From Ideonella sp. A 288 (lineage in GTDB: Bacteria; Pseudomonadota; Gammaproteobacteria; Burkholderiales; Burkholderiaceae_C), in NCBI RefSeq assembly GCF_002198735.1, contig NZ_MWLO01000094.1, positions 1 to 40,381 on the forward strand: a stretch of DNA of 40,381 nucleotides, in the 5' to 3' direction. A program made the position numbers and the translations under genes. Of this stretch, positions 7,038 through 30,882 are shown in pieces. The notes beneath the pieces were generated by a model. That model did not search any database. It was not told the DNA's origin and saw only the letters and a program-made list of their open reading frames with translations. Position 1 is the stretch's first letter, and each line of letters opens with the position of its first letter.

Positions 7038-9830
<2,793 letters not shown>

Positions 9831-9897
9831 GCCAGAGACGCGACCCGTCGCCGCGGCCCGCCATGGGCCCGCGCTGGCAGCCCCCCCGGCGCGCGCC

Positions 9898-9910
9898 GAC
9901 AATCGCGCGA
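9898..9910 (+). promoter_or_regulatory. putative leaderless -10 box of the MFS gene
   Basis: GACAAT at 9898-9903 ends six bases before the ATG at 9910, the same spacing as at metH1. A CTGGCA at 9874-9879 (18-base spacing) could serve as the -35 box. There is no Shine-Dalgarno sequence. Confidence 0.42.
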
Positions 9911-11112
9911 TGCACCCCCCGTCGCGCGCCGTCGCCCTGCTGTTGAACCTGGCCCATGCAGTCGACCACCTGTTCTTGTTGATCTTCGCCACCGCCGTGG
10001 TGGCCATCGCGGCGGACTTCGGCTTCTCGCGCTGGGAAGACCTGATGCCTTACGGCGCCGGCGCCTTCCTGATGTTCGGCCTGGGCTCGCTGCCCGCCGG
10101 CCGCCTGGGCGACCTGTGGGGTCGTCGGCAGATGATGCTGGTGTTCTTCGTCGGCATGGGCCTGTCGGCCCTGTTGGCCGCCGCCACGCAGAGCGCCTGG
10201 CAACTGGCCGCGGCGCTGACGTTGCTGGGCTGCTTCTCGGCCATCTACCACCCGGTGGGCATCCCGATGCTGGTGCAGGGGGCCAGCCGGCCGGGGGCCA
10301 CCATCGGCGTCAACGGCCTCAGCGGCAACCTGGGCATCGCCACGGCGGCGCTGGTCACCGGCGTGCTGGTGAAGGCCTTCGGCTGGCGCATGGCCTTTGC
10401 GATTCCCGGCATCGCCTGCCTGGCGATGGGCTGGCTGTTCGCGCGCGTGGTGCCGCACGAGGCCGAGCCACCGTCGAAGCGCGTGCGCAAGGCCGCGGTG
10501 GTGCTGGCGCCGGCGCAGCTGGCGCGGGTGCTGGTGGTGATGACGGTGGCCTCGGCCTGCGGCGGCCTGCTGTTCAACCTGACCACCAACGGCAACGGCC
10601 GCCTGCTCGACGAGCGCCTGCGCGGCGTCATCGAAGACCCGGCCACGCTGGGCCTGCTGCTGGCCGCCGTGTACGCGGTGGCCTCGCTGGCGCAGGTGGT
10701 GGTGGGGCGCCTGATCGACCGCTTTCCGCTCAAGCCGCTGCAACTGGGCATCGTGCTGGCGCAGGTGCCGCTGCTGCTGCTGGCCTCGCAGGCCCAGGGC
10801 TGGGCGCTGTATGCGGCGCTGATGGCGTCGATGGTGCTGATCTTCGGCGGCATCCCGTTCACGGACGCCACCATCGTGCGTTATGTCGACGACCGCATGC
10901 GCTCGCGCGTGGCCGGCGTGCGGCTGGCGCTGTCGGCCGGTGTCAGCTCGCTGGCGGTGTGGGGGTTGGGCCCGGCGGTCAAGTCGGCCGGCTTCGACAC
11001 GCTGCTGATGGCCATGGCCGGCATCGCGCTGTTCACCGCCGCGGTGGTGCTGTGGCTGCCCGGCGAGCCGGGGGCGGTGGCGCAGCCCGCGGCCGACCCG
11101 GCGCGGCCGTAG
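9910..11112 (+). CDS. MFS transporter
   Basis: A 400-residue integral membrane protein with about twelve hydrophobic segments in two halves, split by a charged loop near residues 185-200 (Glu-Ala-Glu-Pro-Pro-Ser-Lys-Arg-Val-Arg-Lys). The loop between segments 2 and 3 carries the MFS signature, Pro-Ala-Gly-Arg-Leu-Gly-Asp-Leu-Trp-Gly-Arg-Arg. An acidic/His motif, Ala-His-Ala-Val-Asp-His, sits in the first segment. The layout and that motif resemble the fosmidomycin-resistance-like branch of MFS exporters, but the substrate cannot be read from the sequence. It follows metH2 by 79 bases with its own putative promoter, so it need not be co-transcribed. It converges on the subtilase gene, with a long hairpin between. 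Confidence 0.88.
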   Translation: MHPPSRAVALLLNLAHAVDHLFLLIFATAVVAIAADFGFSRWEDLMPYGAGAFLMFGLGSLPAGRLGDLWGRRQMMLVFFVGMGLSALLAAATQSAWQLAAALTLLGCFSAIYHPVGIPMLVQGASRPGATIGVNGLSGNLGIATAALVTGVLVKAFGWRMAFAIPGIACLAMGWLFARVVPHEAEPPSKRVRKAAVVLAPAQLARVLVVMTVASACGGLLFNLTTNGNGRLLDERLRGVIEDPATLGLLLAAVYAVASLAQVVVGRLIDRFPLKPLQLGIVLAQVPLLLLASQAQGWALYAALMASMVLIFGGIPFTDATIVRYVDDRMRSRVAGVRLALSAGVSSLAVWGLGPAVKSAGFDTLLMAMAGIALFTAAVVLWLPGEPGAVAQPAADPARP

Positions 11113-16169: not shown

Positions 16170-16685
16170 TCAGCGGTGTGGAGTGGTTGGCGGGGTGGCA
16201 GGGTGGATCTGACGGGTGACGTAAGACTGAACCCTGAACGGACCCACGATGGGCGCTGAATCAGGTCTCGGCTTGGTCAGATCCGTCAGGTACACGAAGA
16301 GGTGGTCTGCCTGCACCACGAAGTACACCCGTTGGCGCTCCATCTCGCGCGGCAGGACGGACTTCAGATCGACGGTCTCCTCGAAGGTCTGGCCGGTGGC
16401 CTTGAGGCGCCACTTGACGTAGAGCGTGTCGCCGAGCGGGATTGGGCCATTGATGTTGGTGGCCTGCATGCTCTTTCCGAACTGACGAATGGCGGTGTCG
16501 GCAGAGACGAAAGCGGCATTGGTGCTGCCATAGCGGTAGTGCAAGATTTCGACTTGCGGGCTGTCAGCGAGCGCATCGAACCCGAACGCGTGGTCCACCA
16601 TGCGGGGGCCCAGCGCGCAGCCCGGCATCGCCAGCGCGGCTGCGATCCACAGGACCAGCCAGGGTCTCGGGGTGAATGAGGTCAC
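16170..16685 (-). CDS. putative lipoprotein, tandem paralogue B
   Basis: A 171-residue lipoprotein starting at GTG, with GGAG seven bases upstream. The lipobox is Ala-Met-Pro-Gly-Cys; Pro at this position is less usual than the Ser of paralogue A, so processing may be less efficient. The motif order matches paralogue A: Gly-Pro-Arg-Met-Val-Asp-His-Ala-Phe, then Gly-Asp-Thr-Leu-Tyr-Val-Lys-Trp, Phe-Glu-Glu-Thr-Val-Asp-Leu-Lys, and Pro-Arg-Glu-Met-Glu-Arg-Gln-Arg. The copies diverge most between about residues 50 and 75 and in the last 30 before the shared tail. This is a tandem duplication whose similarity also covers the DNA just past each stop codon. The two probably share a transcript. Function is unknown. 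Confidence 0.8.
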   Translation of the reverse strand: MTSFTPRPWLVLWIAAALAMPGCALGPRMVDHAFGFDALADSPQVEILHYRYGSTNAAFVSADTAIRQFGKSMQATNINGPIPLGDTLYVKWRLKATGQTFEETVDLKSVLPREMERQRVYFVVQADHLFVYLTDLTKPRPDSAPIVGPFRVQSYVTRQIHPATPPTTPHR

Positions 16686-16713
16686 GCCGCTGCTCCGCTG
16701 AACGCCCTGCCGC

Positions 16714-18237
16714 TCACTGCTGCGGCAAGGCCCGCCGGTACTGCATCGCCTCGGCCAGGTGCACCACGCCGATGGATTCGGCGCCGGCCAGGTCGGCGAT
16801 GGTGCGGGCCACCTTCATCACCCGGTGCACTGAGCGGCCCGACCAGCCCAGCCGGCCGGCGGCCTGTTGCACGAAGCGCGAGGCGGCGTCGTCCAAGGCG
16901 CAGACGGTGTCCAGCGCAGCGCTGTCGAGCGCGCCGTTGGCGCAGCCCTGTCGGGCGATCTGGCGTGCGCGGGCCGTGGCCACGCGCGCCGCCACCACGG
17001 CCGTCGGCTCGCCTTCGGGCTGGGCCAGCAACTCGGCCGGGGCGACGGCGGCCACCTCCACCTGCAGGTCGACGCGGTCGATCAGCGGCCCCGACAGCTT
17101 GCCCTGGTAGCGCGCCACCTGGTCGGGCGTGCAGCGGCACTGCCGGCTGGCCACCTGGGCGCCGAGCCAGCCGCAGGGGCAGGGGTTCATCGCCGCCACC
17201 AGCTGGAAGTCGGCCGGGAAGGTGGCCTGCCGCGCTGCGCGCGAGATGGTGATGCGGCCGGTTTCCAGCGGCTCGCGCAGGGCTTCGAGCGCGGCGCGGG
17301 GAAACTCAGGCAACTCGTCCAGGAACAGCACGCCGCCGTGGGCCAGCGAGATCTCGCCCGGCCGCGGCGGCGAGCCGCCGCCCACCAGTGCCACTGCGCT
17401 GGCCGAGTGGTGCGGGCTGCGCACCGGCCGGCAGCGCCAGCGCGTGGTGTCGAAGCCGCCCGGCGACAGGCCGGCCAGCGCGGCGCTGGACAGCGCCTCG
17501 TCGTCGGTCATCGGCGGCAGCAGGCCGGGCAGGCGCTGCGCCAGCATCGACTTGCCGCTGCCGGGCGGGCCCACCATCAACAGGCTGTGGCCGCCGGCCG
17601 CGGCCACTTCCATGGCCCGCTTGGCCGCCGCTTGGCCTCGCACGTCGCGCAAGTCTGCGCTCACGTTGGTGGTGCAGGCGTCGTCGGGCCGGGCGGGCGA
17701 CAAGGGCTCCATGGCCTCGCCGGGCAGCAGCGCGCGCACCACGTCCAGCAGGTGCGCGGCGGCCAGCACGGTGACGCCGCTGGCGCGCGCCGCCTCGCGC
17801 GCGCTGGCGCTGGGCAGCACCAGTGCGCGCGGAGCGGCCGCTTGCGACAGCGCCAGGGCCAGTGCCAGCGCGCCGCGCACCGGCCGCAGCTCGCCGGCCA
17901 GCGACAGCTCGCCCGCGAACTCGCAGGCGGCCAGCCGCGCCGCATCAAGTTGCCCGTCGGACGCCAGGATGCCCAGCGCGATCGGCAGGTCGAAGCGGCC
18001 CGACTCCTTGGGCAGGTCGGCCGGCGCCAGGTTGACGGTGATGCGCTTGTTGTGCGGGAAGGCGAAGCCCGAATTGGTCAGCGCGGCGCGCACGCGCTCG
18101 CGCGACTCGCGCACTTCGGTGTCGGCCAGGCCCACCAGGGTGAAGCTGGGCAGGCCGTTGGCCAGGTGCACCTCCACCTGCACTTCGGGTGCGTCCAGCC
18201 CATCCAGCGCGCGGCTGGCGACGACGGCCAATGACAT
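16714..18237 (-). CDS. comM: ComM/YifB family Mg-chelatase-like AAA ATPase
   Basis: A 507-residue protein, the family's normal length. The N-terminal ChlI-like domain (about 1-165) begins Met-Ser-Leu-Ala-Val-Val. It is followed by an AAA domain with Walker A Gly-Pro-Pro-Gly-Ser-Gly-Lys-Ser near residues 222-229 and Walker B Leu-Phe-Leu-Asp-Glu-Leu-Pro-Glu-Phe about 80 residues later. Cysteines in Pro-Cys-Pro-Cys-Gly and Cys-Arg-Cys form a zinc-like cluster. ComM is a hexameric helicase that promotes branch migration when transformed DNA is integrated. GGAGG five bases before ATG 18237 fixes the start; the longer frame from 18345 is rejected. It is divergent from the torF-glnK-amtB unit, so the 262-base gap serves both directions. 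Confidence 0.95.
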   Translation of the reverse strand: MSLAVVASRALDGLDAPEVQVEVHLANGLPSFTLVGLADTEVRESRERVRAALTNSGFAFPHNKRITVNLAPADLPKESGRFDLPIALGILASDGQLDAARLAACEFAGELSLAGELRPVRGALALALALSQAAAPRALVLPSASAREAARASGVTVLAAAHLLDVVRALLPGEAMEPLSPARPDDACTTNVSADLRDVRGQAAAKRAMEVAAAGGHSLLMVGPPGSGKSMLAQRLPGLLPPMTDDEALSSAALAGLSPGGFDTTRWRCRPVRSPHHSASAVALVGGGSPPRPGEISLAHGGVLFLDELPEFPRAALEALREPLETGRITISRAARQATFPADFQLVAAMNPCPCGWLGAQVASRQCRCTPDQVARYQGKLSGPLIDRVDLQVEVAAVAPAELLAQPEGEPTAVVAARVATARARQIARQGCANGALDSAALDTVCALDDAASRFVQQAAGRLGWSGRSVHRVMKVARTIADLAGAESIGVVHLAEAMQYRRALPQQ

Positions 18238-18340
18238 GCGTTCCTCCCCTGCGGGGCATTCTGCGGCCCCGCGCGGGGCCGATTGTGCGCGAGCGCGTGG
18301 CCCCTGGCGGGCACGGCGAACCATCACCGCACGCGCATGG

Positions 18341-18357
18341 TGCACCCTACCAGTGCG
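18341..18357 (+). promoter_or_regulatory. putative NtrC enhancer site 1
   Basis: GCAC (18342-18345), seven bases, GTGC (18353-18356): the exact dyad and spacing of the NtrC consensus. It lies about 90 bases upstream of the sigma-54 -24 element. Confidence 0.65.
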
Positions 18358-18368
18358 CCCCGAATCGG

Positions 18369-18385
18369 TGCGCTATTGCGGTGCC
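18369..18385 (+). promoter_or_regulatory. putative NtrC enhancer site 2
   Basis: GCGC (18370-18373), seven bases, GTGC (18381-18384): one mismatch to the NtrC half-site with the correct spacing. Its centre is 28 bases from that of site 1, which would allow side-by-side dimers. Confidence 0.55.
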
Positions 18386-18432
18386 GGCTGGCCCGATCAC
18401 ACCGACCTGGGGCGTTTGTGACAGCACACACA

Positions 18433-18448
18433 TGGCATGGAAGCTGCA
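18433..18448 (+). promoter_or_regulatory. sigma-54 (-24/-12) promoter of torF-glnK-amtB
   Basis: TGGCATGGAAGCTGCA has the invariant GG (18434-18435) and GC (18446-18447) with exactly ten bases between, as RpoN requires. The expected transcription start is near 18459, about 40 bases before the torF ATG. The two upstream NtrC-like dyads and the glnK and amtB genes downstream support nitrogen-limitation control. Confidence 0.8.
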
Positions 18449-18499
18449 AAAAGGTTCCCCGACAACCACTTCCATTCATCCACACCCGGAGCCTCGCCC

Positions 18500-19592
<1,093 letters not shown>

Positions 19593-19626
19593 AGCGCCGT
19601 CCACCATCGTTGGAAAGAACAATCCC

Positions 19627-21150
19627 ATGAGAAAACTCATCGCTTCACTCGCCCTGGGCCTGGCGGTCCTCGGCTTTGCCGGCATCGCGTCGGCGCAGGA
19701 CGCAGCGGCGTCGGCCCCGATGGCCGCCTCTGCGGCCTCCGCCGCAGAGGCGCCGGCCGCGGCCCCAGCGCCTGCCGCGGCGGCTTCGGCTGCTGCGGCG
19801 CCTGCCTCGGCCGCCCCGGCGCCCGTGGCCAACAAGGGCGACAACGCCTGGATGCTGGTGGCCACCCTGCTCGTCATCATGATGACGGTGCCCGGCCTGG
19901 CCCTGTTCTACGGCGGCCTGGTGCGCAGCAAGAACATGCTGTCGGTGCTGATGCAGGTGATGGTCACCTTCTCGCTGATCGTCGTGCTGTGGGCCCTGTA
20001 CGGCTACAGCCTGGCCTTCACCGAAGGCAATGCCTACATCGGCGGCTTCGACCGGCTGTTCCTGAAGGGCATCTTCGATCCCGCCACCGGCACCTTCGCC
20101 ATGGCCGCCACCTTCAGCAAGGGGGTCTACATCCCCGAGCTGCTGTTCGCCGCCTTCCAGGCCACCTTCGCCGGCATCACCTGCTGCCTGATCGTCGGTG
20201 CGTTCGCCGAGCGCATCAAGTTCTCGGCCGTGCTGCTGTTCTCGGTGCTGTGGTTCACCTTCAGCTACACGCCGATCGCTCACATGGTGTGGTACTGGAT
20301 GGGCCCGGACGCCTACACCGGCAAGGAAGTCGTCGACGCGATGAACGCCAAGGCCGGCATGCTGTGGCAGTGGGGCGCGCTGGACTTCGCCGGCGGCACC
20401 GTGGTGCACATCAATGCCGCCGTGGCGGGCCTGGTGGGTGCCTTCATGATCGGCAAGCGCGTGGGTTACGGCAAGGAAGCCATGGCCCCGCACAGCCTGC
20501 CGCTGACGATGGTCGGTGCCTCGATGCTGTGGGTGGGCTGGTTCGGCTTCAACGCCGGCTCGGCGCTCGAAGCGGGCAACTCGGCCGTGCTGGCCTTCAT
20601 GAACACCTTCACCGCCACCGCCGCTGCGGTGCTGGCCTGGTGTCTGGGTGAAGCGCTGATGCGCGGCAAGGCCTCGATGCTGGGTGCGGCGTCGGGTGCG
20701 GTGGCGGGCCTGGTGGCCATTACCCCGGCGGCCGGCAACGTCGGCCTCATGGGGGCGATCGTCATCGGCTTCGTCGCCGGCTTCGCCTGCCTGTGGGGTG
20801 TCAACGGCCTGAAGCGCATGCTCGGCGCCGACGACTCGCTGGACGTGTTCGGCGTGCACGGTGTCGGCGGCATCGTCGGCGCGTTGCTGACGGGCGTGTT
20901 CAACACGCAGGACCTCGGCGGCCCGGGCCTGGTGACCGATTGGGTCACCGCCACCGTCGGCTCCAACCCCATCGGCACGCAGGTCTGGATCCAGTTGAAG
21001 GCCGTGCTGCTGACCGTCGTCTGGTCGGGCGTGGTGGCCGCGGTGTCGTTCAAGATCGTCGACCTCGTCGTCGGTCTGCGCGTGACCGAAGAGGAAGAGC
21101 GCGAAGGCCTCGACATCTCGTCGCACGGCGAGACGGCCTACAGCAAGTGA
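19627..21150 (+). CDS. amtB: ammonium transporter
   Basis: A 507-residue Amt/Mep/Rh channel with a cleavable signal peptide (Ala-Ser-Ala near residue 23), an Ala/Pro/Ser-rich stretch (about 24-75) and eleven predicted membrane helices. The twin pore histidines are visible in Thr-Val-Val-His-Ile-Asn-Ala and Asp-Val-Phe-Gly-Val-His-Gly-Val-Gly-Gly-Ile; the first helix has Pro-Gly-Leu-Ala-Leu-Phe-Tyr-Gly-Gly. It brings ammonium across the inner membrane and is gated by GlnK. It is last in the torF-glnK-amtB unit and is followed by a textbook terminator. The long low-complexity segment between signal peptide and first helix is unusual and would face the periplasm. Confidence 0.96.
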   Translation: MRKLIASLALGLAVLGFAGIASAQDAAASAPMAASAASAAEAPAAAPAPAAAASAAAAPASAAPAPVANKGDNAWMLVATLLVIMMTVPGLALFYGGLVRSKNMLSVLMQVMVTFSLIVVLWALYGYSLAFTEGNAYIGGFDRLFLKGIFDPATGTFAMAATFSKGVYIPELLFAAFQATFAGITCCLIVGAFAERIKFSAVLLFSVLWFTFSYTPIAHMVWYWMGPDAYTGKEVVDAMNAKAGMLWQWGALDFAGGTVVHINAAVAGLVGAFMIGKRVGYGKEAMAPHSLPLTMVGASMLWVGWFGFNAGSALEAGNSAVLAFMNTFTATAAAVLAWCLGEALMRGKASMLGAASGAVAGLVAITPAAGNVGLMGAIVIGFVAGFACLWGVNGLKRMLGADDSLDVFGVHGVGGIVGALLTGVFNTQDLGGPGLVTDWVTATVGSNPIGTQVWIQLKAVLLTVVWSGVVAAVSFKIVDLVVGLRVTEEEEREGLDISSHGETAYSK

Positions 21151-21273: not shown

Positions 21274-22179
21274 TCAAAGCCGCTGGCAGAACTCCATCAA
21301 ATGGTTGCGGAACCACTGGTGGCCGGCGTCCGATTCCACCGCCTCGTGCCAGATCAGGTACACCGGGAACTGCGGCAGGTGCAGCGGCACCGCGTGTGAG
21401 CGCAGGCGGAAGTTGTCGGCGTACAGCTGCGCCATGCGGCGCGGCAGCGTGCAGATCATGTCGGTGTGCTGCACCATCACCGGCATCGCGATGAAGTGCG
21501 GCACCATCACCGCGATGCGGCGCTGCAGGCCGCGCTTGGCCAGGGCCAGGTCGATCATCGGCCGGGCGTTCGACGGCCCGCCCAGCACCACGTGGCGCAG
21601 CGCCAGGTACAACTCCAGCGTCATGCGCTCGCCCAGCAGCGGGTGGTCGCGCCGCGACAGGCTCATCAGCGTCTCGGTCAACACGCACTTGTTGCGGTAG
21701 CCGGCGTCCGCAAGCGCGAAGTAGTCCAGCGCCAGATCCACCGTGCCCTCGCGCAGTTCGGCCTTCAACTGCGCGGCCGAGGCGGCACGGATGCGGATGC
21801 GCACCTGCGGCGCGGCCTCGGCCAGCCAGCGGATGAAGCCCGGCAGGATCACCGCCTCGCCGTAGTCCTCGACGCCGATCACGAACTCGCGGTCGGTGTG
21901 CGCGTAGTCGAAGGTGTCGTCGCTGCGCAGGCCGCGCTCCAGCGTGGTCAGCGCCTGGCGGATCGGCTCGGCCAGCCGCTTGGCCTTGGGCGTGGGCAGC
22001 ATGCCCTGGGCGTTGCGCTCGAACAGCGGGTCCTGCAGCCGGTCGCGCAGCCGGGCCAGCGCGTTGCTCACCGTCGGCTGCGACAGGTGCAGCTTGGCGG
22101 CTGCCTTGGAAATGCTGCGCTCGCCGTAGATGGCGTCGAAGACCAGCAGCAGGTTCAGGTCCAGCGAACGCAGGTTCAC
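21274..22179 (-). CDS. LysR family transcriptional regulator
   Basis: A 301-residue LTTR, normal length, starting at GTG 22179 with the sequence Asn-Leu-Arg-Ser-Leu-Asp-Leu-Asn-Leu-Leu-Leu-Val-Phe. The winged helix-turn-helix (about 5-62) reads Ser-Ile-Ser-Lys-Ala-Ala-Ala-Lys-Leu-His-Leu-Ser-Gln-Pro-Thr-Val-Ser-Asn-Ala-Leu. The effector-binding domain follows from about residue 90. Ser-Gln-Pro-Thr-Val-Ser and the effector domain place it in the NodD/SyrM/LinR-like branch rather than the CysB branch. It is divergent from the Bug-thiolase-ACAD-CoA ligase gene set and presumably controls it, with a CoA ester or its acid as co-inducer. An upstream frame continuing to 22917 has no family support and is ignored. 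Confidence 0.92.
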   Translation of the reverse strand: MNLRSLDLNLLLVFDAIYGERSISKAAAKLHLSQPTVSNALARLRDRLQDPLFERNAQGMLPTPKAKRLAEPIRQALTTLERGLRSDDTFDYAHTDREFVIGVEDYGEAVILPGFIRWLAEAAPQVRIRIRAASAAQLKAELREGTVDLALDYFALADAGYRNKCVLTETLMSLSRRDHPLLGERMTLELYLALRHVVLGGPSNARPMIDLALAKRGLQRRIAVMVPHFIAMPVMVQHTDMICTLPRRMAQLYADNFRLRSHAVPLHLPQFPVYLIWHEAVESDAGHQWFRNHLMEFCQRL

Positions 22180-22190
22180 GGGGGGTGCCG

Positions 22191-22216
22191 ATATTCGGAA
22201 TATGAATTCTGCATAT
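22191..22216. promoter_or_regulatory. LysR operator in the divergent intergenic region
   Basis: Two overlapping dyads stand out from the GC-rich background. ATATTC-G-GAATAT (22191-22203) is a perfect inverted repeat. ATATG-N7-CATAT (22200-22216) fits the LTTR T-N11-A box, from T22203 to A22215. A perfect TTGACA (22217-22222) abuts the second dyad on the plus strand, but I find no good -10 at normal spacing, as expected for an activator-dependent promoter. Confidence 0.75.
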
Positions 22217-22290
22217 TTGACATCAGAAGTTGATGCATGTTGGCGCCGCTTCGATACTGCGCCGGCACCGCCCCCCCACCGGAGATCCAC

Positions 22291-23253
22291 ATGCGATCCA
22301 TTTCCAGATTCGCCGCCGTCGCGTTGCTGGCCGTGGGGGCGGCGGCCTTTGCCCAGGGCTATCCCAACAAGCCGATCAAGGTGGTCGTGCCCTATGCCCC
22401 TGGCGGCAACATGGAGCACTGGCGGCCCACGCTGGCCAAGGTGAGCCAGATCCTGGGCCAGCCGCTGCTGATGGAGAACCGGCCCGGCGCCGGCGGCAAC
22501 ATCGGCAGCGACACGGTGGCCAAGTCGCCGGGCGACGGCTACACCCTGCTGATCGGCACCATCGGCACCCACGCCATCAACCCCAGCGCCTACGCGCGCA
22601 TGCCCTACGACGCGATCAAGGACTTCACCCCGATCGTGTCGCTGGCCACGATGACCAACGTGGCCATCGTGCACCCGGCGATGCCGGTGAAGACCATCCA
22701 GGAGTTCATCGCCCACGCCAAGGCCAGCCCCGGCAAGCTCAACTTCGGCTCGCCGGGCAATGGCTCGTCGGCGCACCTGACCGGCGAGCTGTTCAACCAG
22801 GTGGCCGGCGTCAGCATGCAGCACGTGCCCTACAAGGGCAGCGCGCCGGCCATGCTCGACCTGATGGCTGGACGCCTGGACATCATGTTCGACAACATCC
22901 CGCTGCCGCTGCAGCACATCAAGGCCGGCAAGCTGCGCGGCCTGGCGGTGACGGCGGCGCAGCGCTCGGCGGTGCTGCCCGAGTTGCCGACGCTGGGCGA
23001 AGCGGGCGTGCAGGGCTTCGATGTCAGCTCCTGGTACGGCATCTACGCCCCGGCCGGGCTGCCGAAGGAGCTGGTGGCCCGCGTCAACGCGGCCTTCAAC
23101 GAGGCCCTGCGCGTGCCCGAGATCCGCGAGCAGCTCACCGCCCAGGGCTGGACGGTCACCGGCGGCACGCCCGAGCAGTTCGGCGCCTTCACCCAGGCCG
23201 AGCTCGACCGCTGGGCCAAGGTGGTGAAGGCCGCCAACGTCCGCGTCGAATGA
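22291..23253 (+). CDS. tripartite tricarboxylate transporter (Bug) substrate-binding protein 1
   Basis: A 320-residue periplasmic receptor with a signal peptide (cleavage after Ala-Phe-Ala near residue 21) and the Bug pattern: Tyr-Pro-Asn-Lys-Pro-Ile-Lys-Val-Val-Val-Pro-Tyr-Ala-Pro-Gly-Gly, then Asn-Arg-Pro-Gly-Ala-Gly-Gly-Asn-Ile-Gly, then Tyr-Lys-Gly-Ser-Ala-Pro-Ala. These proteins bind carboxylic acids through ordered waters. The usual Asp after Gly-Gly, which contacts the ligand's amino group or helps shape the pocket, is replaced by Asn-Met here. No TctA or TctB membrane genes are in the window, so it is an orphan receptor that may use a distant permease or act as a sensor. GGAG six bases before ATG 22291 fixes the start. 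It is first in the LysR-linked unit. Confidence 0.9.
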   Translation: MRSISRFAAVALLAVGAAAFAQGYPNKPIKVVVPYAPGGNMEHWRPTLAKVSQILGQPLLMENRPGAGGNIGSDTVAKSPGDGYTLLIGTIGTHAINPSAYARMPYDAIKDFTPIVSLATMTNVAIVHPAMPVKTIQEFIAHAKASPGKLNFGSPGNGSSAHLTGELFNQVAGVSMQHVPYKGSAPAMLDLMAGRLDIMFDNIPLPLQHIKAGKLRGLAVTAAQRSAVLPELPTLGEAGVQGFDVSSWYGIYAPAGLPKELVARVNAAFNEALRVPEIREQLTAQGWTVTGGTPEQFGAFTQAELDRWAKVVKAANVRVE

Positions 23254-23321
23254 CCAGCCCGGCCCACTGATCGGGCCCGGGCCGGGCCCGCCCCGTGACC
23301 GACCCCCAAGGAAAGCACCTG

Positions 23322-24530
23322 ATGCGATCAGAAGTTGCCATCGTCGGCTGCGGCCGCACCCCCTACAGCCGGGCCAAGGCCGGCGAGCCCGTGCGCACCG
23401 TCGACGACTACATCGCCTGGGCCGCCGACCTGGCGCTGCAGCAGGCCGGCATGTCGAAGACCGATTTCGACGGCCAGGGCCTGGGCGTGGCCCATGCCGA
23501 GGTGGCGCACACCGTCAACTGGTCGGCCGCGGTGGCCGAGAACCTGGGCATCAGCCCGCAGGTGCTGATCCGCGCCGACCAGGGCGGCGCCTCGGCCTCG
23601 GCGATGCTGATCCGCGCCGCGGCGATGATCCACGCCGGCATCGTCGACCGCGTGCTGGTGGTGGGCGCCGACACGCCGCTGAACATGCCGTCGATCGCGC
23701 CCGGCCTGCCGCTGTCGCCCGAGCGCACGCGCGGCGTGTACTGGGACTTCCAGGGCCCGTTCGGCGTGATGGGCGCCAGCGCCCAGTTCGCGCTGGTGCT
23801 GCAGCGCTACCAGCACGAACACAAGCTCACCTCCGAGCAGATGGGCAAGGTCGCCGTCAATGCGCGTTATCACGCCTCGATGCACGAGGGCGCCATCTAC
23901 CGCAAGCCGTTCACGCTGCAGGAGTACCTCGACTCGCGCCTGCTCACCGACCCGATCCGCCTGCTCGACTGCGTGCCCATCGTCAACGGCGGCCTGGCCT
24001 ACATCGTCACCTCGGCCAAGACCGCGCGCACGCTGACCGACAAGCCGGTGTACCTGCGCGGCTTCGGCGAGGTCAACAACTACTACCGCGGCCCGCGCGC
24101 GCTGCCCGACATCACCTACACCGGCTTCACGCAGGCCGCGCCCCAGGCCATGGCCATGGCCGGCGTGAAGCACAGGGACATCCAGTTCCTGCAGCCCTAC
24201 GACGACTATCCCTTCATCGCCATCATGACGATCGAGGACCACGGCTTCTGCCAGAAGGGCGAGGGCGGCCGCTTCGTCGACGAGCACGACCTGCACTTCG
24301 ACGGTGACTTTCCGATGTCCACCGACGGCGGCCAGCTCTCGGGCGGCCAGCCCGGCGGGGCCATCGGCGGCTTCATGCCGCTGGTCGAATCGGTGTCGCA
24401 GCTGCGCGGCGAGGCCGGCGCGCGCCAGGTGCGCGATGCCGGGCTGGGCATCTCCTGCGGCTTCGGCGGCATCCCCTACGGCCGCCCGGGCCGCAGCTGC
24501 ATTTCACTGGTCCTCGGAAGGGAGCCCTGA
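23322..24530 (+). CDS. thiolase-like (SCP2/Ltp-type) protein lacking the nucleophilic cysteine
   Basis: A 402-residue thiolase-superfamily protein. It starts Val-Ala-Ile-Val-Gly-Cys-Gly-Arg-Thr-Pro-Tyr and has the C-terminal Ile-Glu-Asp-His-Gly-Phe-Cys-Gln-Lys-Gly-Glu-Gly-Gly and Gln-Leu-Arg-Gly-Glu-Ala-Gly-Ala-Arg-Gln-Val motifs of the SCP2-thiolase/lipid-transfer group. Where degradative thiolases have the acyl-accepting Cys, residues 85-92 read Ala-Asp-Gln-Gly-Gly-Ala-Ser-Ala, with no Cys. Ltp2-like members of this kind pair with a DUF35 protein and cleave aldol CoA esters instead of performing thiolysis; the next gene, two bases away, is a DUF35 protein. A retro-aldolase or acyl-CoA lyase role is therefore inferred. 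AAGGA upstream supports ATG 23322 over GTG 23295. Confidence 0.85.
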   Translation: MRSEVAIVGCGRTPYSRAKAGEPVRTVDDYIAWAADLALQQAGMSKTDFDGQGLGVAHAEVAHTVNWSAAVAENLGISPQVLIRADQGGASASAMLIRAAAMIHAGIVDRVLVVGADTPLNMPSIAPGLPLSPERTRGVYWDFQGPFGVMGASAQFALVLQRYQHEHKLTSEQMGKVAVNARYHASMHEGAIYRKPFTLQEYLDSRLLTDPIRLLDCVPIVNGGLAYIVTSAKTARTLTDKPVYLRGFGEVNNYYRGPRALPDITYTGFTQAAPQAMAMAGVKHRDIQFLQPYDDYPFIAIMTIEDHGFCQKGEGGRFVDEHDLHFDGDFPMSTDGGQLSGGQPGGAIGGFMPLVESVSQLRGEAGARQVRDAGLGISCGFGGIPYGRPGRSCISLVLGREP

Positions 24531-24532
24531 GC

Positions 24533-24985
24533 ATGGCCGACACCACACCGAACGAGCCGTCGAACACGCCATCGAACAAGCCGCTGCCCGTCATCACCGA
24601 CCTGACGCGCCCCTTCTGGACGGCCGCCAAGGAAGGGCTGCTGGTGCTGCAGAAATGCCAGCGCTGCGGCACCTTCAACTTCCACCCCAAGGCCTGGTGC
24701 ATCGACTGCGGCAGCCGCGAGCTGGTGTGGACCCCGGCCCAGCCCTTCGGCACGGTGTACTCCTTCACCATCTCGCGCTCGGTGGCGATGAACTACCCGG
24801 GCTGGCAGGCCGAGCTGCCGGTGCTGATGTGCCTGATCGACCTCGACGACGGCGCCCGCATGTACGCGCAGGTGACGCACTGCGCGCCCGAGGCGCTGCA
24901 CATCGGCATGCGCGTGCAGGTGCATTTCGAATCGATCAGCGACGAGGCCGGCATCCCCAAGTTCCGGCCGTTGCTGGCCGCCTGA
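24533..24985 (+). CDS. Zn-ribbon / OB-fold (DUF35) acyl-CoA-associated protein
   Basis: A 150-residue partner protein. A rubredoxin-like zinc ribbon uses C42, C45, C56 and C59 (Cys-Gln-Arg-Cys ... Cys-Ile-Asp-Cys), followed by an OB-fold (about 65-145) with Gly-Thr-Val-Tyr-Ser-Phe-Thr-Ile-Ser-Arg. An N-terminal helix includes Thr-Arg-Pro-Phe-Trp-Thr-Ala-Ala. DUF35 proteins bind CoA esters and form complexes with Ltp-type thiolases, as in steroid side-chain degradation. The start codon is two bases after the thiolase-like stop, so translation is probably coupled and the two should form one complex. The first 17 residues are Asn/Thr/Pro-rich and likely disordered. Confidence 0.9.
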   Translation: MADTTPNEPSNTPSNKPLPVITDLTRPFWTAAKEGLLVLQKCQRCGTFNFHPKAWCIDCGSRELVWTPAQPFGTVYSFTISRSVAMNYPGWQAELPVLMCLIDLDDGARMYAQVTHCAPEALHIGMRVQVHFESISDEAGIPKFRPLLAA

Positions 24986-24994
24986 GCACGGGCG

Positions 24995-26212
24995 ATGGAG
25001 CCGACGCCCGACGATCTCGAACTGCGCAGGGCCGGCATGCACGACGTGCCCTTCGACTGGCAGGATGCGCTGCGCCTGGACGACCTGTTGACGCCCGAAG
25101 AGGTGATGATCCGCGACAGCGCGCGCAAGTACGCGCAAGAGCGGCTGATGCCGCGCATCCTGCAGGCGCACCGCCACGAGACCTTCGACGTGGAGGTGAT
25201 GCGCGAGATGGGCGAGCTGGGCTTCCTGGGCGCCACGATCCAGGGCTTCGGCTGCGCCGGCATCAGCTATGTCGGCTACGGCCTGATCGCCCGCGAGTTC
25301 GAGCGCGTCGACACCGCCTTCCGCTCGGCGCTGGGCGTGCAGAGCACGCTGTCGATGATGCCGATCTACCTGTTCGGCAGCCAGGAGCAGCGCGAGCGCT
25401 ACCTGCCGGCCATGGCCCGCGGCCGCACGCTCGGCTGCTTCGGCCTGACCGAGCCCGACCACGGCTCCGACCCCGGCTCGATGGCCAGCCGCGCGCGCGC
25501 GGTCGACGGCGGCTGGCGCCTCAGTGGCACCAAGACCTGGATCACCCACGCCCCCATCGCCGACCTGATGGTGGTGTGGGCCAAGGACGAGGGCGGCCGC
25601 GTCAACGGCTTCGTGCTCGAGCGCGGCATGCCGGGCCTGTCCACCGCCAAGATCGAGGGCAAGTTCTCGGTGCGGGCCTCGCCCACCGGCGAGATCCACA
25701 TGGACGACGTGTTCGTGCCCGAGTCGCAGCGCCTGCCCGGTGCCAAGGGCCTGGCCGCTCCGTTTGCGTGCTTGAACAACGCGCGCTTCGGCATCTGCTG
25801 GGGCGCGATGGGCGCGGCCGAGTTCTGCTGGCATGCCGCGCGGCAGTATGTGCTCGACCGCAAGCAGTTCGGCCGGCCGCTGGCCGCCAACCAGCTGGTG
25901 CAGAAGAAGCTGGCCGACATGCAGACCGAGGTCACCCTCGGCACGCTGGCCTGCCTGCACCTGAGCCGCCTGCGCGATCAGGGCCGGGCCAGCCCCGAGA
26001 TGGTGTCGCTGCTCAAGCGCAACTGCGCCGGCAAGGCGCTGGACATCGCCCGGACGGCCCGCGACATGCACGGCGGCAACGGCATCTCCGACACCTACCA
26101 CGTCATTCGCCACCTGATGAACCTCGAGACGGTGAACACGCTCGAAGGCACGCACGACATCCACGCGCTGGTGCTGGGCCGTGCGCAGACCGGCATTTCC
26201 GCCTTCAACTAG
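24995..26212 (+). CDS. acyl-CoA dehydrogenase, glutaryl-CoA dehydrogenase-like
   Basis: A 405-residue FAD enzyme of the acyl-CoA dehydrogenase family, closest by eye to glutaryl-CoA dehydrogenase: [15 protein letters not shown], Trp-Ile-Thr-His-Ala-Pro-Ile-Ala-Asp, and Asp-Met-His-Gly-Gly-Asn-Gly-Ile-Ser. The catalytic base is E384 (Leu-Glu-Gly-Thr-His-Asp). R110 in Phe-Arg-Ser-Ala-Leu matches the Arg that binds the distal carboxylate of glutaryl-CoA. Such enzymes oxidise and decarboxylate glutaryl-CoA to crotonyl-CoA. Some key context differs from housekeeping GcdH: it lies in a Bug/DUF35/ADP-ligase unit, and the usual Gly-Gly in the loop after Pro-Thr-Ile is altered to Gly-Phe-Gly-Cys-Ala-Gly. 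It starts nine bases after the DUF35 stop. Substrate may be glutarate or a substituted dicarboxylate. Confidence 0.88.
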
Positions 26213-26221
26213 AGGCTGCCG

Positions 26222-28381
26222 ATGGCCCATGCCCCCACCGCCCGCGCCGAAGCCATCGAGCGGCTGATCCACCCGCGCTCGATCGCCATCGTCGGCGCGT
26301 CGGCCGACCTATCGAAGATCAACGGCCGGCCGCTGAAGCACCTGCTCGACAAGGGCTACGCCGGCCGCATCCTGCCGGTGAACCCGAAGTACCCGCAGAT
26401 CGCCGGGCTGGCCTGCGTGCCCGACATCGCCAGCCTGCCCGAGGCGGCCGACCTGGCCATCGTGGCGGTGCCGGCCAGCGAGGTGCTGGCCAGCCTCGAC
26501 GCGCTGGGCCGGCGCGGTGTGCGCGCAGCCGTGGTCTTCAGCTCGGGCTTCGGCGAGACCGGCGCCGACGGCCTGGCGCTGGAGCAGGCGCTGGCCGCCT
26601 GCGCCGCGCGCCACGGCATGGTGCTGTGCGGCCCCAACTGCCTGGGCTTCGTCAACGCCTTCGACAAGGTCTACGCCACCTTCAGCCAGTACGCCGATGG
26701 CCCCACCGGGCCCGGGCCGATCGCCTTCGTCACCCAGTCGGGCGCCTTCGGCACCGCCATCGCCGCGCTGGCGCGGCAGCGCGGGCTGGGCCTGGGCTAC
26801 TTCATCAACACCGGCAACCAGGCCGACCTGGATTTCAGCGAACTGATGGGCAGCGTGGTCGGCGATCCGCGCATCCGCGTCGCCGCCGGCTACCTCGAAG
26901 GGCTGGAGGACGGCCCGGCGCTGATCCGCCTGGCGCGGCGCTGCCACCAGCTGGGCAAGCCGCTGGTGCTGACCAAGGTGGGCCGCATGGCGTCGGGCCA
27001 GCGCGCGGCGGCTTCGCACACCGGTGCGCTGGCGGTGGCCGATGCGGTGTTCGACGCAGTGATCCGCCAGCACGGCGTGCTGCGCGCACGCAACGAAGAG
27101 CAGATGCTCGACATGCTGCAGGCCCTGTCGCAGGAGCGCCGCCCCGCGGGCTTTGGCCTGGGCATCGCCACGCAGTCGGGCGGTGCCGGCGTGATGATGG
27201 CCGACCGCGCCGAGGAGGTGGGCCTGGACGTGCCCGAGCTGGCGCCCGCCACCCAGGCCCGCCTGGCCGGGGTGATGCCCGCCTTCGGCTCGGCCGGCAA
27301 TCCGGTCGACGTGACCGGTCAGTTCGTGGCGCGGCCCGAACTGCTGCGCGAATCGGTGGTGGCGCTGCTGGACGACCCGGGCATCCACCTGGGCATCGTC
27401 TGGCTGCAGCTGATGACCGCGCACGTGGACACGCTGGTGCGCATCTTCTGCGAGATCCGCGACCGCACCACCAAGCCCTTCTTCGTCTGCTGGGTGGCCG
27501 CACCGGCGGCGGCCCTGGCCCAGCTGCAGGCCGAGGGCATCGTCGTCTTCAGCGCCGGCGAGCGGGCGGTGGAGGCAGCGGCGGCGCTGGCGCGCCATGC
27601 CGCCTTCGCGCGGGCCCAGGCCCGGCGCGGGCCTCTGGTGCCGCGGCAGCTGGCGCTGCCGGCGCTGCGGGGCCGCGTGCACGACGGCGTGCAGCCCAGC
27701 GTGCCGGCCACCGAGTGGCTGCGCGCCGCGGGCGTGCCGGTGGCCTCGGTGGCGCTGGCCCGCGACGCCGACCAGGCGGTGGCGCTGTGGCGCGCCGCCG
27801 GGGCGCCGGTGGCGTTGAAGATCGAATCGGCCGACATCACCCACAAGACCGAGGTCGGCGGCGTGATCCTGAACCTCGACGACGAAGCGGCCGTGCGCGC
27901 TGCCTACGACCTGCTGTGGCAGCGGGCCCGCCAGGCCCGACCCCAGGCGGTGCTGGACGGCGTGCTGGTGCAGGCCATGGCCTCGGGCGACGTCGAACTC
28001 GTGGTCGGCGCGCAGCGCGACCCGGTGTTCGGCATGGTCGTGATGGTCGGCCTGGGCGGCGTGCTGGTCGAGGTGCTGAAGGACGTGGCCTTCCGCCATG
28101 CGCCCTTCGACGTCGACGAGGCCCACGCCATGCTGCGCGAGCTGCGCCTGGGCGCGCTGCTCGACGGCGTGCGCGGCCGGCCCGGCGTGGACCGGGGCGC
28201 CCTCGCCCGCCTGCTGTCCGACCTGTCGCATTGGGTGGCCGCGATGCAGCCCTGGCTGGCCGAGCTCGACCTCAACCCGGTGCTGGTCGGCGCCAACGGG
28301 CCGCTGGCCGTTGACTGCGTGATGGTGTTCCGGCACCAGCCCGCGGGTCTGCCCGCGCCGGACCGACCCCGCCCGACCTGA
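26222..28381 (+). CDS. acetate-CoA ligase family protein (ADP-forming acyl-CoA synthetase)
   Basis: A 719-residue single-chain NDP-forming acyl-CoA synthetase. It has a CoA-binding Rossmann domain (about 10-135, Ile-Ala-Ile-Val-Gly-Ala-Ser), a succinyl-CoA ligase-like domain (about 150-460) with the phospho-acceptor H266 in Ala-Ser-His-Thr-Gly-Ala-Leu, and an ATP-grasp domain (about 485-710) with Ala-Leu-Lys-Ile-Glu-Ser and His-Lys-Thr-Glu-Val-Gly-Gly. It makes an acyl-CoA from acid, CoA and ATP, releasing ADP and phosphate. In this cluster it is the candidate activating enzyme for the acid captured by the Bug receptors. AGAGG precedes ATG 26222, nine bases after the dehydrogenase stop. Acid specificity cannot be read; a protein acetyltransferase domain, present in some relatives, is absent. 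Confidence 0.9.
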   Translation: MAHAPTARAEAIERLIHPRSIAIVGASADLSKINGRPLKHLLDKGYAGRILPVNPKYPQIAGLACVPDIASLPEAADLAIVAVPASEVLASLDALGRRGVRAAVVFSSGFGETGADGLALEQALAACAARHGMVLCGPNCLGFVNAFDKVYATFSQYADGPTGPGPIAFVTQSGAFGTAIAALARQRGLGLGYFINTGNQADLDFSELMGSVVGDPRIRVAAGYLEGLEDGPALIRLARRCHQLGKPLVLTKVGRMASGQRAAASHTGALAVADAVFDAVIRQHGVLRARNEEQMLDMLQALSQERRPAGFGLGIATQSGGAGVMMADRAEEVGLDVPELAPATQARLAGVMPAFGSAGNPVDVTGQFVARPELLRESVVALLDDPGIHLGIVWLQLMTAHVDTLVRIFCEIRDRTTKPFFVCWVAAPAAALAQLQAEGIVVFSAGERAVEAAAALARHAAFARAQARRGPLVPRQLALPALRGRVHDGVQPSVPATEWLRAAGVPVASVALARDADQAVALWRAAGAPVALKIESADITHKTEVGGVILNLDDEAAVRAAYDLLWQRARQARPQAVLDGVLVQAMASGDVELVVGAQRDPVFGMVVMVGLGGVLVEVLKDVAFRHAPFDVDEAHAMLRELRLGALLDGVRGRPGVDRGALARLLSDLSHWVAAMQPWLAELDLNPVLVGANGPLAVDCVMVFRHQPAGLPAPDRPRPT

Positions 28382-28431
28382 TTTCTCGCCCCGCGCCACC
28401 CCAAAACGACCACCCCAGGAGACACAGACCC

Positions 28432-29448
28432 ATGGCACACCCTTCGCGCACCATCCTGTCGCGACTGCTCGCCGCGTCGGCGCTTGCGGCCGCCGTCCTG
28501 GCCGGGCCCGCGGCACTGGCCCAGGGGGCCTATCCCAACCGCGCCATCACCGTCGTGGCGCCCTACAGCGCCGGTGGCGATGCCGACCTGGCCGCGCGCA
28601 ACTTCGCCGCCGCCGCGCAGCGCGTGCTGGGCCAGACGGTGCTGGTGGTCAACAAGACCGGCGCCAGCGGGGTGATCGGTTCGGCGCAGGTGGTGGCCGC
28701 GCCGCCCGACGGCTACACCCTGCTGCTGGCGCGCACCGGCTCGCAGGCCATCCTGCCGGCGATCCAGCCCACGTCCACCAAGTACAAGTGGGACGACTAC
28801 ACCTTCATCGGCATGCTCGAGCTCAACCCGTACGGCTGCGCGGTGAACGCCAAGTCGACGTACCGCACGCTCGACGACCTGGTCAAGGCCATCCGCAGCA
28901 AGGGCAAGTCGATGAACTTCGGCACCGCCGGGCAGCTGACCACCAACGACATGGGCCCGCGCGAGCTGTTCCGCCTGCTCAAGCTGACCCCTGACCAGGC
29001 GCCGACGATGATCCCGTACAAGGGCACGGGCGATGCGGTGCAGTCGCTGCTGGCCGGCGAGACCGACTTCTCCTGCGGCAGCATGGGCCCCTTCCTGGCC
29101 CACATCAAGGCGGGCACGCTGCGCACGGTGATGGTCACCACGGCCGAGCGCCTGGCCTCGCTGCCCGACGTGCCCACCGCGCGCGAGCTGGGCTATGCCG
29201 AGATGGAGCGCATCGTCGGCTGGAGCGCGGTGTTCGGCCCGGCCAAGCTGCCGGCCGACGTGCGCGACAAGCTGACCGCCACGCTTAAGGCCCTGGCCAC
29301 CGATCCGGCCTGGCTGGCCGGCACCGCCCAGACCGGCTCGGTGCCCTACGTCAAGTCGCCCGACGAGACCCGCGATTTCGTGCAGGGCCAGTACCAGCTG
29401 TACCGCACCCTGGGCGAGCAACTGGGCATCATCGACGGCAAGCCGTAA
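28432..29448 (+). CDS. tripartite tricarboxylate transporter (Bug) substrate-binding protein 2
   Basis: A 338-residue periplasmic receptor with a signal peptide (cleavage after Ala-Leu-Ala near residue 30). The Bug signature reads Tyr-Pro-Asn-Arg-Ala-Ile-Thr-Val-Val-Ala-Pro-Tyr-Ser-Ala-Gly-Gly-Asp-Ala-Asp, with the usual Asp pair present, unlike receptor 1. Tyr-Lys-Gly-Thr-Gly-Asp-Ala-Val and Gly-Gly-equivalent pocket loops follow. It is distant in sequence from receptor 1, so it is not a recent duplicate and may bind a different acid. It follows the CoA ligase by 50 bases with an AGGAG ribosome-binding site and is probably last in the unit. No membrane transporter genes accompany it. Confidence 0.9.
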   Translation: MAHPSRTILSRLLAASALAAAVLAGPAALAQGAYPNRAITVVAPYSAGGDADLAARNFAAAAQRVLGQTVLVVNKTGASGVIGSAQVVAAPPDGYTLLLARTGSQAILPAIQPTSTKYKWDDYTFIGMLELNPYGCAVNAKSTYRTLDDLVKAIRSKGKSMNFGTAGQLTTNDMGPRELFRLLKLTPDQAPTMIPYKGTGDAVQSLLAGETDFSCGSMGPFLAHIKAGTLRTVMVTTAERLASLPDVPTARELGYAEMERIVGWSAVFGPAKLPADVRDKLTATLKALATDPAWLAGTAQTGSVPYVKSPDETRDFVQGQYQLYRTLGEQLGIIDGKP

Positions 29449-29604
29449 GGGGCGCCCAGGCGCGAGGTTCCCGACGGCACCGGCGGCCACGGCGGTCGCC
29501 GGCGTGCCGGGTTGCGCACCCGGCGCAACCTTGCGCACTTGCAAGCGGGCGCGGCAGCCCCATCTGCCAGAATCGTCCACCGCCCGCCGCCGCTCCCTGC
29601 CGCC

Positions 29605-30882
29605 ATGGTTCCCCACCTCATCACCGCGCTCACCGGCCCCATCAACGAGTTGGAGGCGCGCATCCTCGACTCGATGCCCGCCATCGAGCGCTGGTTCCGG
29701 CTCGAGTGGATGGAGCACACGCCGCCGTTCTACTGCTCGGTGGACGTGCGCAATGCCGGCTTCAAGCTGGCCCCGGTGGACACAGACCTGTTCCCCGGCG
29801 GCTTCAACAACCTCACGCCCGAGATGCTGCCGCTGGCGGTGCAGGCGGCGATGGCGGCCATCGAGAAGATCTGCCCCGAGGCCAAGAACCTGCTGCTGAT
29901 CCCCGAAAAGCACAGCCGCGACAGCTTCTACCTGATGAACGTGCAGCGGCTGATGCGCATCTTCACGCAGGCCGGGCTGAACGTGCGCCTGGGCTCGCTG
30001 GACAGCGAGATCACGGCGCCCACCCCCGTGGCCCTGCCCGACGGCACCGAGCTCGTGCTCGAGCCGCTGAAGCGCACGCGCGGCCGGCTGGGCCTGAAGG
30101 ACTTCGACCCCTGCACCATCCTGCTCAACAACGACCTGTCGGAAGGCGTGCCCAAGTCGCTGCAGCACCTGCACGAGCAGTACCTGCTGCCGCCGCTGCA
30201 CGCCGGCTGGGGCGTGCGCCGCAAGTCGAACCACTTCAAAAGCTATGAAGAGGTGGCCAAGAAGTTCGCCAAGCTGCTGGGCATGGACCCCTGGCTCATC
30301 CACCCGATGTTCGCCGCCGGCGGCACCCTCGACCCGGCCACCGGCGCGGGCCTCGAGGCGCTGCGCGACCATGTCGATGCGCTGCTCACCAAGGTGCGCC
30401 GCAAGTACAAGGAATACGGCATCGGCGAAAAGCCCTTCGTCGTCGTCAAGGCCGACAACGGCACCGACGGCCGCGGCCTGATGACGGTGCGCGATGCCCG
30501 CGAGGTGGCCGACCTGGCCGCCCGCCTGCGCGAGCAGGGCGAGGGCGTCACCGAGCTCATCGTGCAGGAAGGCGTGCCGACCAACGAGCGCGTCAATGCC
30601 GCCGTGGCCGAGCCGGTGGTCTACATGATCGACCGCTACGTGGTGGGCGGCTTCTACCGCGTGCACGCCGAGCGCGGCGCCGATGAGACCCTCAATGCCC
30701 CGGGCGCCAGCTACGTGCCGCTGGCCTTCGCCGAGAGCCACCAGCTGCCGCGCCGCGGCGAGAAGCCCGGCGCCAGTGCGCCGAACCGCTTCTACATGTA
30801 CGGCGTGATCGGCCGGCTGGCCATGCTGGCCGCCAGCTACGAGCTGGAAGCCTCCGACCCCGACGCCGAGGTCTACGACTGA
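29605..30882 (+). CDS. gshA: glutamate-cysteine ligase, betaproteobacterial type
   Basis: A 425-residue enzyme of the GshA class found in betaproteobacteria and acidithiobacilli, unrelated in layout to the E. coli enzyme. It joins glutamate and cysteine with ATP in the first step of glutathione synthesis. Visible marks are Trp-Met-Glu-His-Thr-Pro-Pro-Phe-Tyr, Asp-Leu-Phe-Pro-Gly-Gly-Phe-Asn-Asn, and the ATP-grasp-like [12 protein letters not shown]. ATG 29605 gives the family N-terminus ([10 protein letters not shown]); the frame from 29512 adds 31 Arg/Pro-rich residues and overlaps a CAGAAT promoter-like box near 29570. gshB lies about 6 kb further on, with kup and four other genes between. 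Confidence 0.93.

Follow-up and report, generated by a model that had tools for sequence, protein, structure and literature searches.

Which acid is degraded by a cluster that joins a thiolase-like protein, a DUF35 protein, a relative of glutaryl-CoA dehydrogenase (GcdH) and an ADP-forming acyl-CoA synthetase? We have examined this question in Ideonella sp. A 288, whose contig NZ_MWLO01000094.1 carries such a cluster at 21274..29448 of the 40,381 nucleotides analyzed here (this whole stretch is called the window). A first-pass annotation, made from the sequence alone, had described a LysR gene divergent from genes for a Bug receptor, the thiolase-like and DUF35 proteins, the dehydrogenase, the ligase and a second Bug receptor. 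All seven were found to be present and open by reading frames and domain scans. The regulator lies on the reverse strand and the other six genes on the forward strand, with 68 bases between the genes of the first receptor (Bug1) and the thiolase-like protein and then 2, 9, 9 and 50 bases down to the second receptor (Bug2), the gaps among the four enzyme genes being on re-measurement those already reported. Our analysis indicates, with a confidence slightly above even, that this operon may take up a short omega-sulfo carboxylic acid, with 4-sulfobutyrate as the simplest assumption, and degrade it to acetyl-CoA and sulfoacetaldehyde.

The gene set is not a peculiarity of this strain. When we analyzed 200 genomes of the same family, that of Ideonella sp. 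A 288 included, only two others had a relative at 77-78% identity, the next best being about 40% identical, and an order-wide draw found the operon in one of 399 genomes, the window's own. The alignment of those three was used to scan 84,980 species genomes by means of two peptide patterns, and gave a non-exhaustive set of 36 named loci at 64-90% identity. They belong mainly to Burkholderiales and Rhizobiales, plus two Rhodobacteraceae, and include Variovorax, Cupriavidus, Pseudorhodoferax, Methylibium, Rubrivivax, Bordetella, Advenella, Martelella and Nitratireductor (the last two Rhizobiales). The nearest thiolase relative of the window is in a Rubrivivax metagenome-assembled genome (locus L063); L082 and L083 are near twins, and L044 is the same contig as L083. 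The plasmid pENH92 of Cupriavidus necator NH9 carries the operon too, annotated without function. Thiolase, DUF35, dehydrogenase and ligase genes were all together in 28 of the 36 loci, a recurrence far beyond chance, and this excludes that the families do not co-occur elsewhere, which had been named as one way in which the annotation could fail. Among the eight loci without the full enzyme set some end at contig edges, while L077, with 10 kb at each side, has thiolase and DUF35 only. Relatives of DUF35 at 55% identity or more were found in the window and 34/36 loci, of LysR at 45% or more in 25/36, and of Bug2 at 55% or more in 16/36, Bug2 being the receptor that recurs.

The thiolase-fold protein (23322..24530) and its DUF35/OB-fold partner (24533..24985; PF01796 and PF12172, and a Cys4 zinc motif, C-x2-C-x10-C-x2-C, that starts at residue 42) form a predicted retro-aldolase. 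The closest solved structure is 9myr (E 4.2e-51). This is the structure of CtSal, the retro-aldolase for bile-acid side chains in Comamonas testosteroni, together with the DUF35 protein CtShy that is its partner (PMC12329534). We have compared 36 sequences of the thiolase-like protein, that of the window and those of 35 loci. In the printed alignment Tyr302, Gln347, Gln352 and Gly391 of CtSal correspond to Y293, Q338, Q343 and G383. Residues G88, G89, Y293, D294 and D295 were invariant, so that the catalytic Tyr (Tyr302 in CtSal, Tyr294 in TcLtp2) was present in 36/36, and Q338 and Q343 were kept in 35/36 with one gap. At the positions that we take to be those of the Cys and His of canonical thiolases we found Gly in all 36 and Gln in 35 (one gap). 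The earlier description of a Cys-less protein is thus correct for the nucleophile, replaced by Gly, but not for the whole chain, which has another cysteine, C379, kept in 31/36. With CtSal-CtShy (9MYR) and TcLtp2 (6OK1) the pair shares a thiolase fold without nucleophilic Cys, a DUF35 partner, the Tyr and two Gln, and a retro-aldol step that would follow a hydratase. However, the motif is YDDY (Y293-D294-D295-Y296) here, YDCY in Sal and YDHF in Ltp2, the predicted substrate is a small acid instead of a steroid, and the hydratase would be a separate crotonase-type protein and not the MaoC-DUF35 partner of Sal. Since neither Cys304 of Sal nor Tyr344 of Ltp2, the catalytic acids, is kept (the latter is Gln343 here), we have filed the protein as working like Sal and Ltp2 but as a member of neither.

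The dehydrogenase (24995..26212) is closest to glutaryl-CoA dehydrogenase, with an E-value of 1.3e-173 to the human enzyme. GcdH E87, R94, S95 and E370 correspond to E103, R110, S111 and E384, kept in 31/31 sequences, and R110 and E384 were indeed the residues that the annotation had singled out. However, Tyr369 of GcdH is Leu383 in 31/31. In GcdH this Tyr contacts Arg94 and the leaving terminal carboxylate (PMC3169403). The genome encodes two further GcdH-like proteins (61% identity), and both retain the Tyr. Its loss in all 31 sequences, while the paralogues keep it, suggests to us that the end group differs or that no decarboxylation takes place. The enzyme differs from GcdH also in its context, an operon with ligase and aldolase, and decarboxylation would not be expected here. 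The ligase (26222..28381) holds CoA-binding, Succ_CoA_lig and ATP-grasp domains (PF13380, PF13607, PF13549), and H266, which had been pointed out before, sits in its SHTG motif and is presumably the phosphohistidine of an ADP-forming enzyme. The 4-hydroxybutyrate-CoA ligase 8wzu aligns with it end to end, and the structural matches as a whole weakly favor an acid of three to four carbons.

A hydratase is missing from the window, and the annotation had supposed that hydration takes place elsewhere. This fits the window but not most of the relatives. In many of them the slot between LysR and thiolase, which holds Bug1 in the window, is taken by a crotonase-type enoyl-CoA hydratase. It was linked in 21/36 loci, in 20 of them within 6 kb of the thiolase (among these L078 and L097, where the match covers part of the length only) and in L083 at about 7 kb in the same run of genes. 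L080 (Pseudorhodoferax soli), which was not counted, has a remnant at about 9743-9961 where the first and last parts of the hydratase adjoin and the middle is missing. None was seen in the remaining 14 loci, five of which have less than 1.4 kb of upstream sequence. As the slot is filled by a hydratase in many relatives and by Bug1 here, hydration is part of the pathway, and the organism of the window probably uses an unlinked enzyme; its genome has 27 hydratase matches, the closest 45% identical to a relative's linked hydratase.

A clue to the acid came from the genomes in which the operon is found. Sulfoacetaldehyde acetyltransferase (Xsc) converts sulfoacetaldehyde to acetyl phosphate and sulfite (PMC10507020, PMC8473912). 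We have searched for Xsc (cut-off 676.4 bits) and sulfoacetaldehyde dehydrogenase (SauS, cut-off 600 bits) in 36 operon genomes, the 35 behind the loci and the window's own, leaving out that of L075. Xsc was above the cut-off in 34 of the 36 (the misses were G227 and G233), with 1041 bits in Ideonella sp. A 288. Xsc was present in 23 of the 200 family members, and without the three operon carriers among them the count for operon-free genomes is 20/197; the comparison of 34/36 with 20/197, made across lineages, gave a Fisher p of 2e-24. Within the family only, the values were 3/3 against 20/197 (p 0.0013, these three being also among the 36), and for beta-proteobacteria only 22/23 against the same 20/197 (p 1e-17). 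In a draw from the family of a Rhizobiaceae operon genome 42 of 151 genomes had Xsc, 4/4 of the known operon genomes and 38/147 of the others (p 0.005), where the others are such by known loci, the operon itself not having been searched there. In order to have a control we counted BoxB, a catabolic family with no relation to Xsc or the operon, which was found in 20/36 operon genomes and 104/197 operon-free ones (107/200 in the whole family), with p 0.86. Among the beta-proteobacteria the Xsc signal is far stronger than that of BoxB. SauS was above its cut-off in 23/36 genomes, operon genomes being the only ones counted.

In some loci these enzymes adjoin the operon. Xsc lies within 10 kb in two of the 36 loci (L075 and L090, a raw count) and not in the window. 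In L075 (Nitratireductor indicus) an Xsc of 917 bits comes next after the TRAP permease; in L090/L144 Xsc is 3.2 kb from the thiolase; and in L063 the opposite strand carries a SauS of 753 bits, 2.5 kb beyond Bug2. In L085/L149 both are about 25 kb from the operon, on a contig that we took as the same one by its equal length. A Bug-SauS-ligase run resembling the one in L063 (80% and 74% identity) is also present in the genome of Ideonella sp. A 288, on another contig. Two thiamine pyrophosphate enzymes flanking L043 were also considered as Xsc and discarded, one being above the acetolactate synthase cut-off (TIGR00118) and the other reaching 181 bits where Xsc would need 676. After Bug2 in L092 and L096 (Methylibium), at about 16190-20300, there is a reading of only about 27% identity to Xsc, and the opposite strand encodes a flavoprotein from the fumarate-reductase superfamily that scores under the cut-offs of the models.

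Transport genes are the variable part among the loci, which have Bug2, TAXI-TRAP genes (L071-L076, L084, L086) or NMT1/SsuA-like ABC genes with TauA/SsuA-like receptors (the L044/L083 contig and L078). Besides, a gene for a TauE/SafE-family membrane protein follows the ligase, at about 3800-4650, in five Rhizobiales loci, detected by Pfam in L071 and by tblastn in L072, L073, L074 and L076. The TauE gene and the TauA/SsuA-like receptors of these loci count in favor of a sulfonate. In L063 and L092 TauE-like genes were named by eye; they matched no NCBIfam model and were not counted as evidence.

Xsc in 34/36 genomes, Xsc or SauS next to the operon and the change of Tyr369 indicate a sulfonated acid. 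If sulfoacetaldehyde and acetyl-CoA are to arise by retro-aldol cleavage, the compound cleaved has to be 3-hydroxy-4-sulfobutyryl-CoA, which a dehydrogenase and a hydratase would make from 4-sulfobutyryl-CoA. The latter is glutaryl-CoA with a sulfonate for the carboxylate, and so fits a GcdH relative with the Arg kept and the Tyr changed. The route that we propose would start with capture of the acid by the Bug receptors for a TctAB-type permease presumably encoded elsewhere. The ligase would then form 4-sulfobutyryl-CoA with release of ADP, and the dehydrogenase would oxidize it to 4-sulfocrotonyl-CoA without decarboxylation, Arg110 perhaps holding the sulfonate and Leu383 giving room for it. 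The hydratase would yield 3-hydroxy-4-sulfobutyryl-CoA and the thiolase-like/DUF35 complex would split it by retro-aldol chemistry, with Tyr293 as the likely base and Asp295 perhaps as the acid. Finally, Xsc, elsewhere in the genome, would convert the sulfoacetaldehyde to acetyl phosphate and sulfite. One acid would in this way account for ligase, dehydrogenase, hydratase, aldolase and Xsc together. We hold it possible, at a little below even, that this is an undescribed pathway for a gamma-sulfo acid (4-sulfobutyrate), in which the sulfonate isostere is oxidized by a GcdH relative with no loss of CO2 and Xsc is fed by a thiolase-fold/DUF35 retro-aldolase of a new Tyr-Asp class. Among the matches listed in our literature search, made mostly without subscription papers, there was none on the operon, on 4-sulfobutyrate catabolism or on the joining of these enzymes.

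Several observations weigh against 4-sulfobutyrate and this chemistry. The compound is undocumented as a natural substrate in the literature searched. Two of the 36 operon genomes have no full Xsc, and that of the window sits on another contig; Xsc serves taurine as well, so that finding it in a genome is not enough to settle the product. The comparison of 34/36 with 20/197 mixes lineages, is unmatched for genome size and counts relatives as independent, and BoxB itself is raised in the beta-proteobacterial operon genomes (18/23 against 104/197, p 0.026), from which it follows that these are somewhat richer in catabolic genes generally. The catalytic residues of GcdH besides Tyr369 are all kept, which leaves room for glutaryl-CoA, and the top structural match of the ligase by E-value is a 3-hydroxypropionate-CoA ligase of different domain order. 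The weakest mechanistic link is in the aldolase. Its Gln161 equivalent is not kept (Ala152 in the window protein), and the catalytic acid Cys304 of CtSal is Asp295 in 36/36. CtSal variants with Ala, Ser or His in place of Cys304 were inactive (PMC12329534), so that Asp295 would mean that a different acid catalyst is at work or that the reaction itself differs.

We have weighed three other explanations. The operon might act on another sulfonated acid, for example the aryl sulfonate 3-(4-sulfophenyl)butyrate, which by the same chemistry would give a sulfonated ketone or aldehyde and acetyl-CoA, Xsc being there for general sulfonate use. Comamonas testosteroni KF-1 does convert this compound to 4-sulfoacetophenone (PMC3746432), its branched beta carbon would seem to require retro-aldol cleavage, and the presence of Xsc at genome level is compatible with any sulfonate user. 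However, the enzymes that adjoin the operon, Xsc in L075 and L090 and SauS in L063, act on sulfoacetaldehyde, and the dehydrogenase is very near GcdH, an enzyme for a short, linear diacid of five carbons. We consider another sulfonated acid unlikely. Marginally less likely still is a plain dicarboxylate (for example glutarate or one of its 3-substituted derivatives, or a relative of adipate) cleaved to a semialdehyde or keto acid and acetyl-CoA. TctC-family receptors are known for carboxylates, and the retention of E87, R94, S95 and E370 is in line with such a substrate, but the contact of the leaving carboxylate is Leu in 31/31, two canonical GcdH-like proteins are encoded in the genome anyway, and a dicarboxylate gives no reason for Xsc in 34/36 genomes. 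For the same Xsc count, for the Xsc and SauS genes adjoining some operons and for the changed Tyr, the substrates that had been proposed at first (glutarate, methylglutarate, adipate, itaconate and aromatic-derived acids) are unsupported.

Least probable of the three, and in our opinion improbable, is that the thiolase-like/DUF35 pair is an unusual thiolase or a decarboxylase, thiolysis acting on a 3-oxoacyl-CoA made with an unlinked dehydrogenase. BbsAB (homologue 7pxp), a thiolase with a DUF35-type subunit, and the retention of C379 speak for it. Against it stand the Gly and Gln at the nucleophile and His positions and the retention of the Tyr, both Gln and the Gly391 equivalent of CtSal. 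Moreover, neither clustering nor reading by eye showed a hydroxyacyl-CoA dehydrogenase among the conserved genes. With sulfobutyrate degradation still the preferred reading, the first-pass interpretation as a whole is partly supported and its enzymology largely upheld: the order of uptake, CoA activation, oxidation, hydration and retro-aldol cleavage agrees with the conservation of the set, the hydratase linked in 21/36 loci and the closeness to a proven retro-aldolase.

The proposed route has its closest parallels in systems already known. SauS acts in the sulfoacetate route, and the predicted product of the operon is the substrate of both SauS and Xsc, one or the other of which adjoins it in three loci. 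However, sulfoacetaldehyde would come here from a C4 acyl-CoA by retro-aldol cleavage, whereas in the known Xsc route it comes from taurine by transamination. The phd cluster of Corynebacterium glutamicum likewise brings a CoA ligase, an enoyl-CoA hydratase and genes for chain shortening together (PMC5479773), but its substrates are phenylpropanoids and an oxidation and a ketohydrolase are drawn there, the likeness being one of described gene content. The 3-(4-sulfophenyl)butyrate route of strain KF-1 is similar in that a sulfonated butyrate loses two carbons to give a sulfonated carbonyl compound (PMC3746432), although its substrate is aromatic and we have compared the two by chemistry alone.

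The remaining genes of the cluster give less information. Both receptors belong to the TctC family (PF03401), Bug1 (22291..23253) with 264 bits and Bug2 (28432..29448) with 151 bits; with 55 TctC matches in a genome of 6.98 Mb, receptors alone say little. The regulator (21274..22179; Pfam HTH_1 and LysR_substrate) has a GTG start picked by comparison with the relatives. In the divergent promoter the dyad ATTC-N7-GAAT (22193..22207) is a probable LysR site judged by its sequence, and a sequence resembling this region can be recognized by eye upstream in the beta-proteobacterial relatives. Directly after Bug2, with a gap of 63 bases, a GshA-type glutamate-cysteine ligase (29512-30882, TIGR02049 above cut-off) is probably unrelated to the operon. 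Upstream of the operon in pENH92 (L105, 6068-13209) the annotated genes are an LLM-class flavin oxidoreductase, a flavin reductase, an MFS transporter, an aldehyde dehydrogenase and a 3-(methylthio)propionyl-CoA ligase. A sister thiolase group, 35-40% identical, also has a YDDYP motif. Its clusters (L045, on contig C84 of the window's own genome, 238-11429; also L052, L059 and L060) show by eye indolepyruvate oxidoreductase subunits, a Rieske dioxygenase pair, a CoA ligase, a thiolase-like protein, a DUF35 fusion, a cyclase-like protein and an SDR, and look like another aryl-acid side-chain pathway.

The system as proposed joins two known kinds, CoA-dependent side-chain cleavage and the sulfoacetaldehyde node, and its substrate class is better supported than the earlier guesses. 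If the assignment is right, a recurring operon that had no name would gain a substrate and a chemistry, the DUF35-linked aldolases would gain an active-site class, and we would see how a substitution at one position of the pocket may redirect an enzyme for dicarboxylates to a sulfocarboxylate. Organosulfonate breakdown would also gain a C4 route into its sulfoacetaldehyde node, the point where the degradation of even-chain omega-sulfo acids would join the sulfur cycle.

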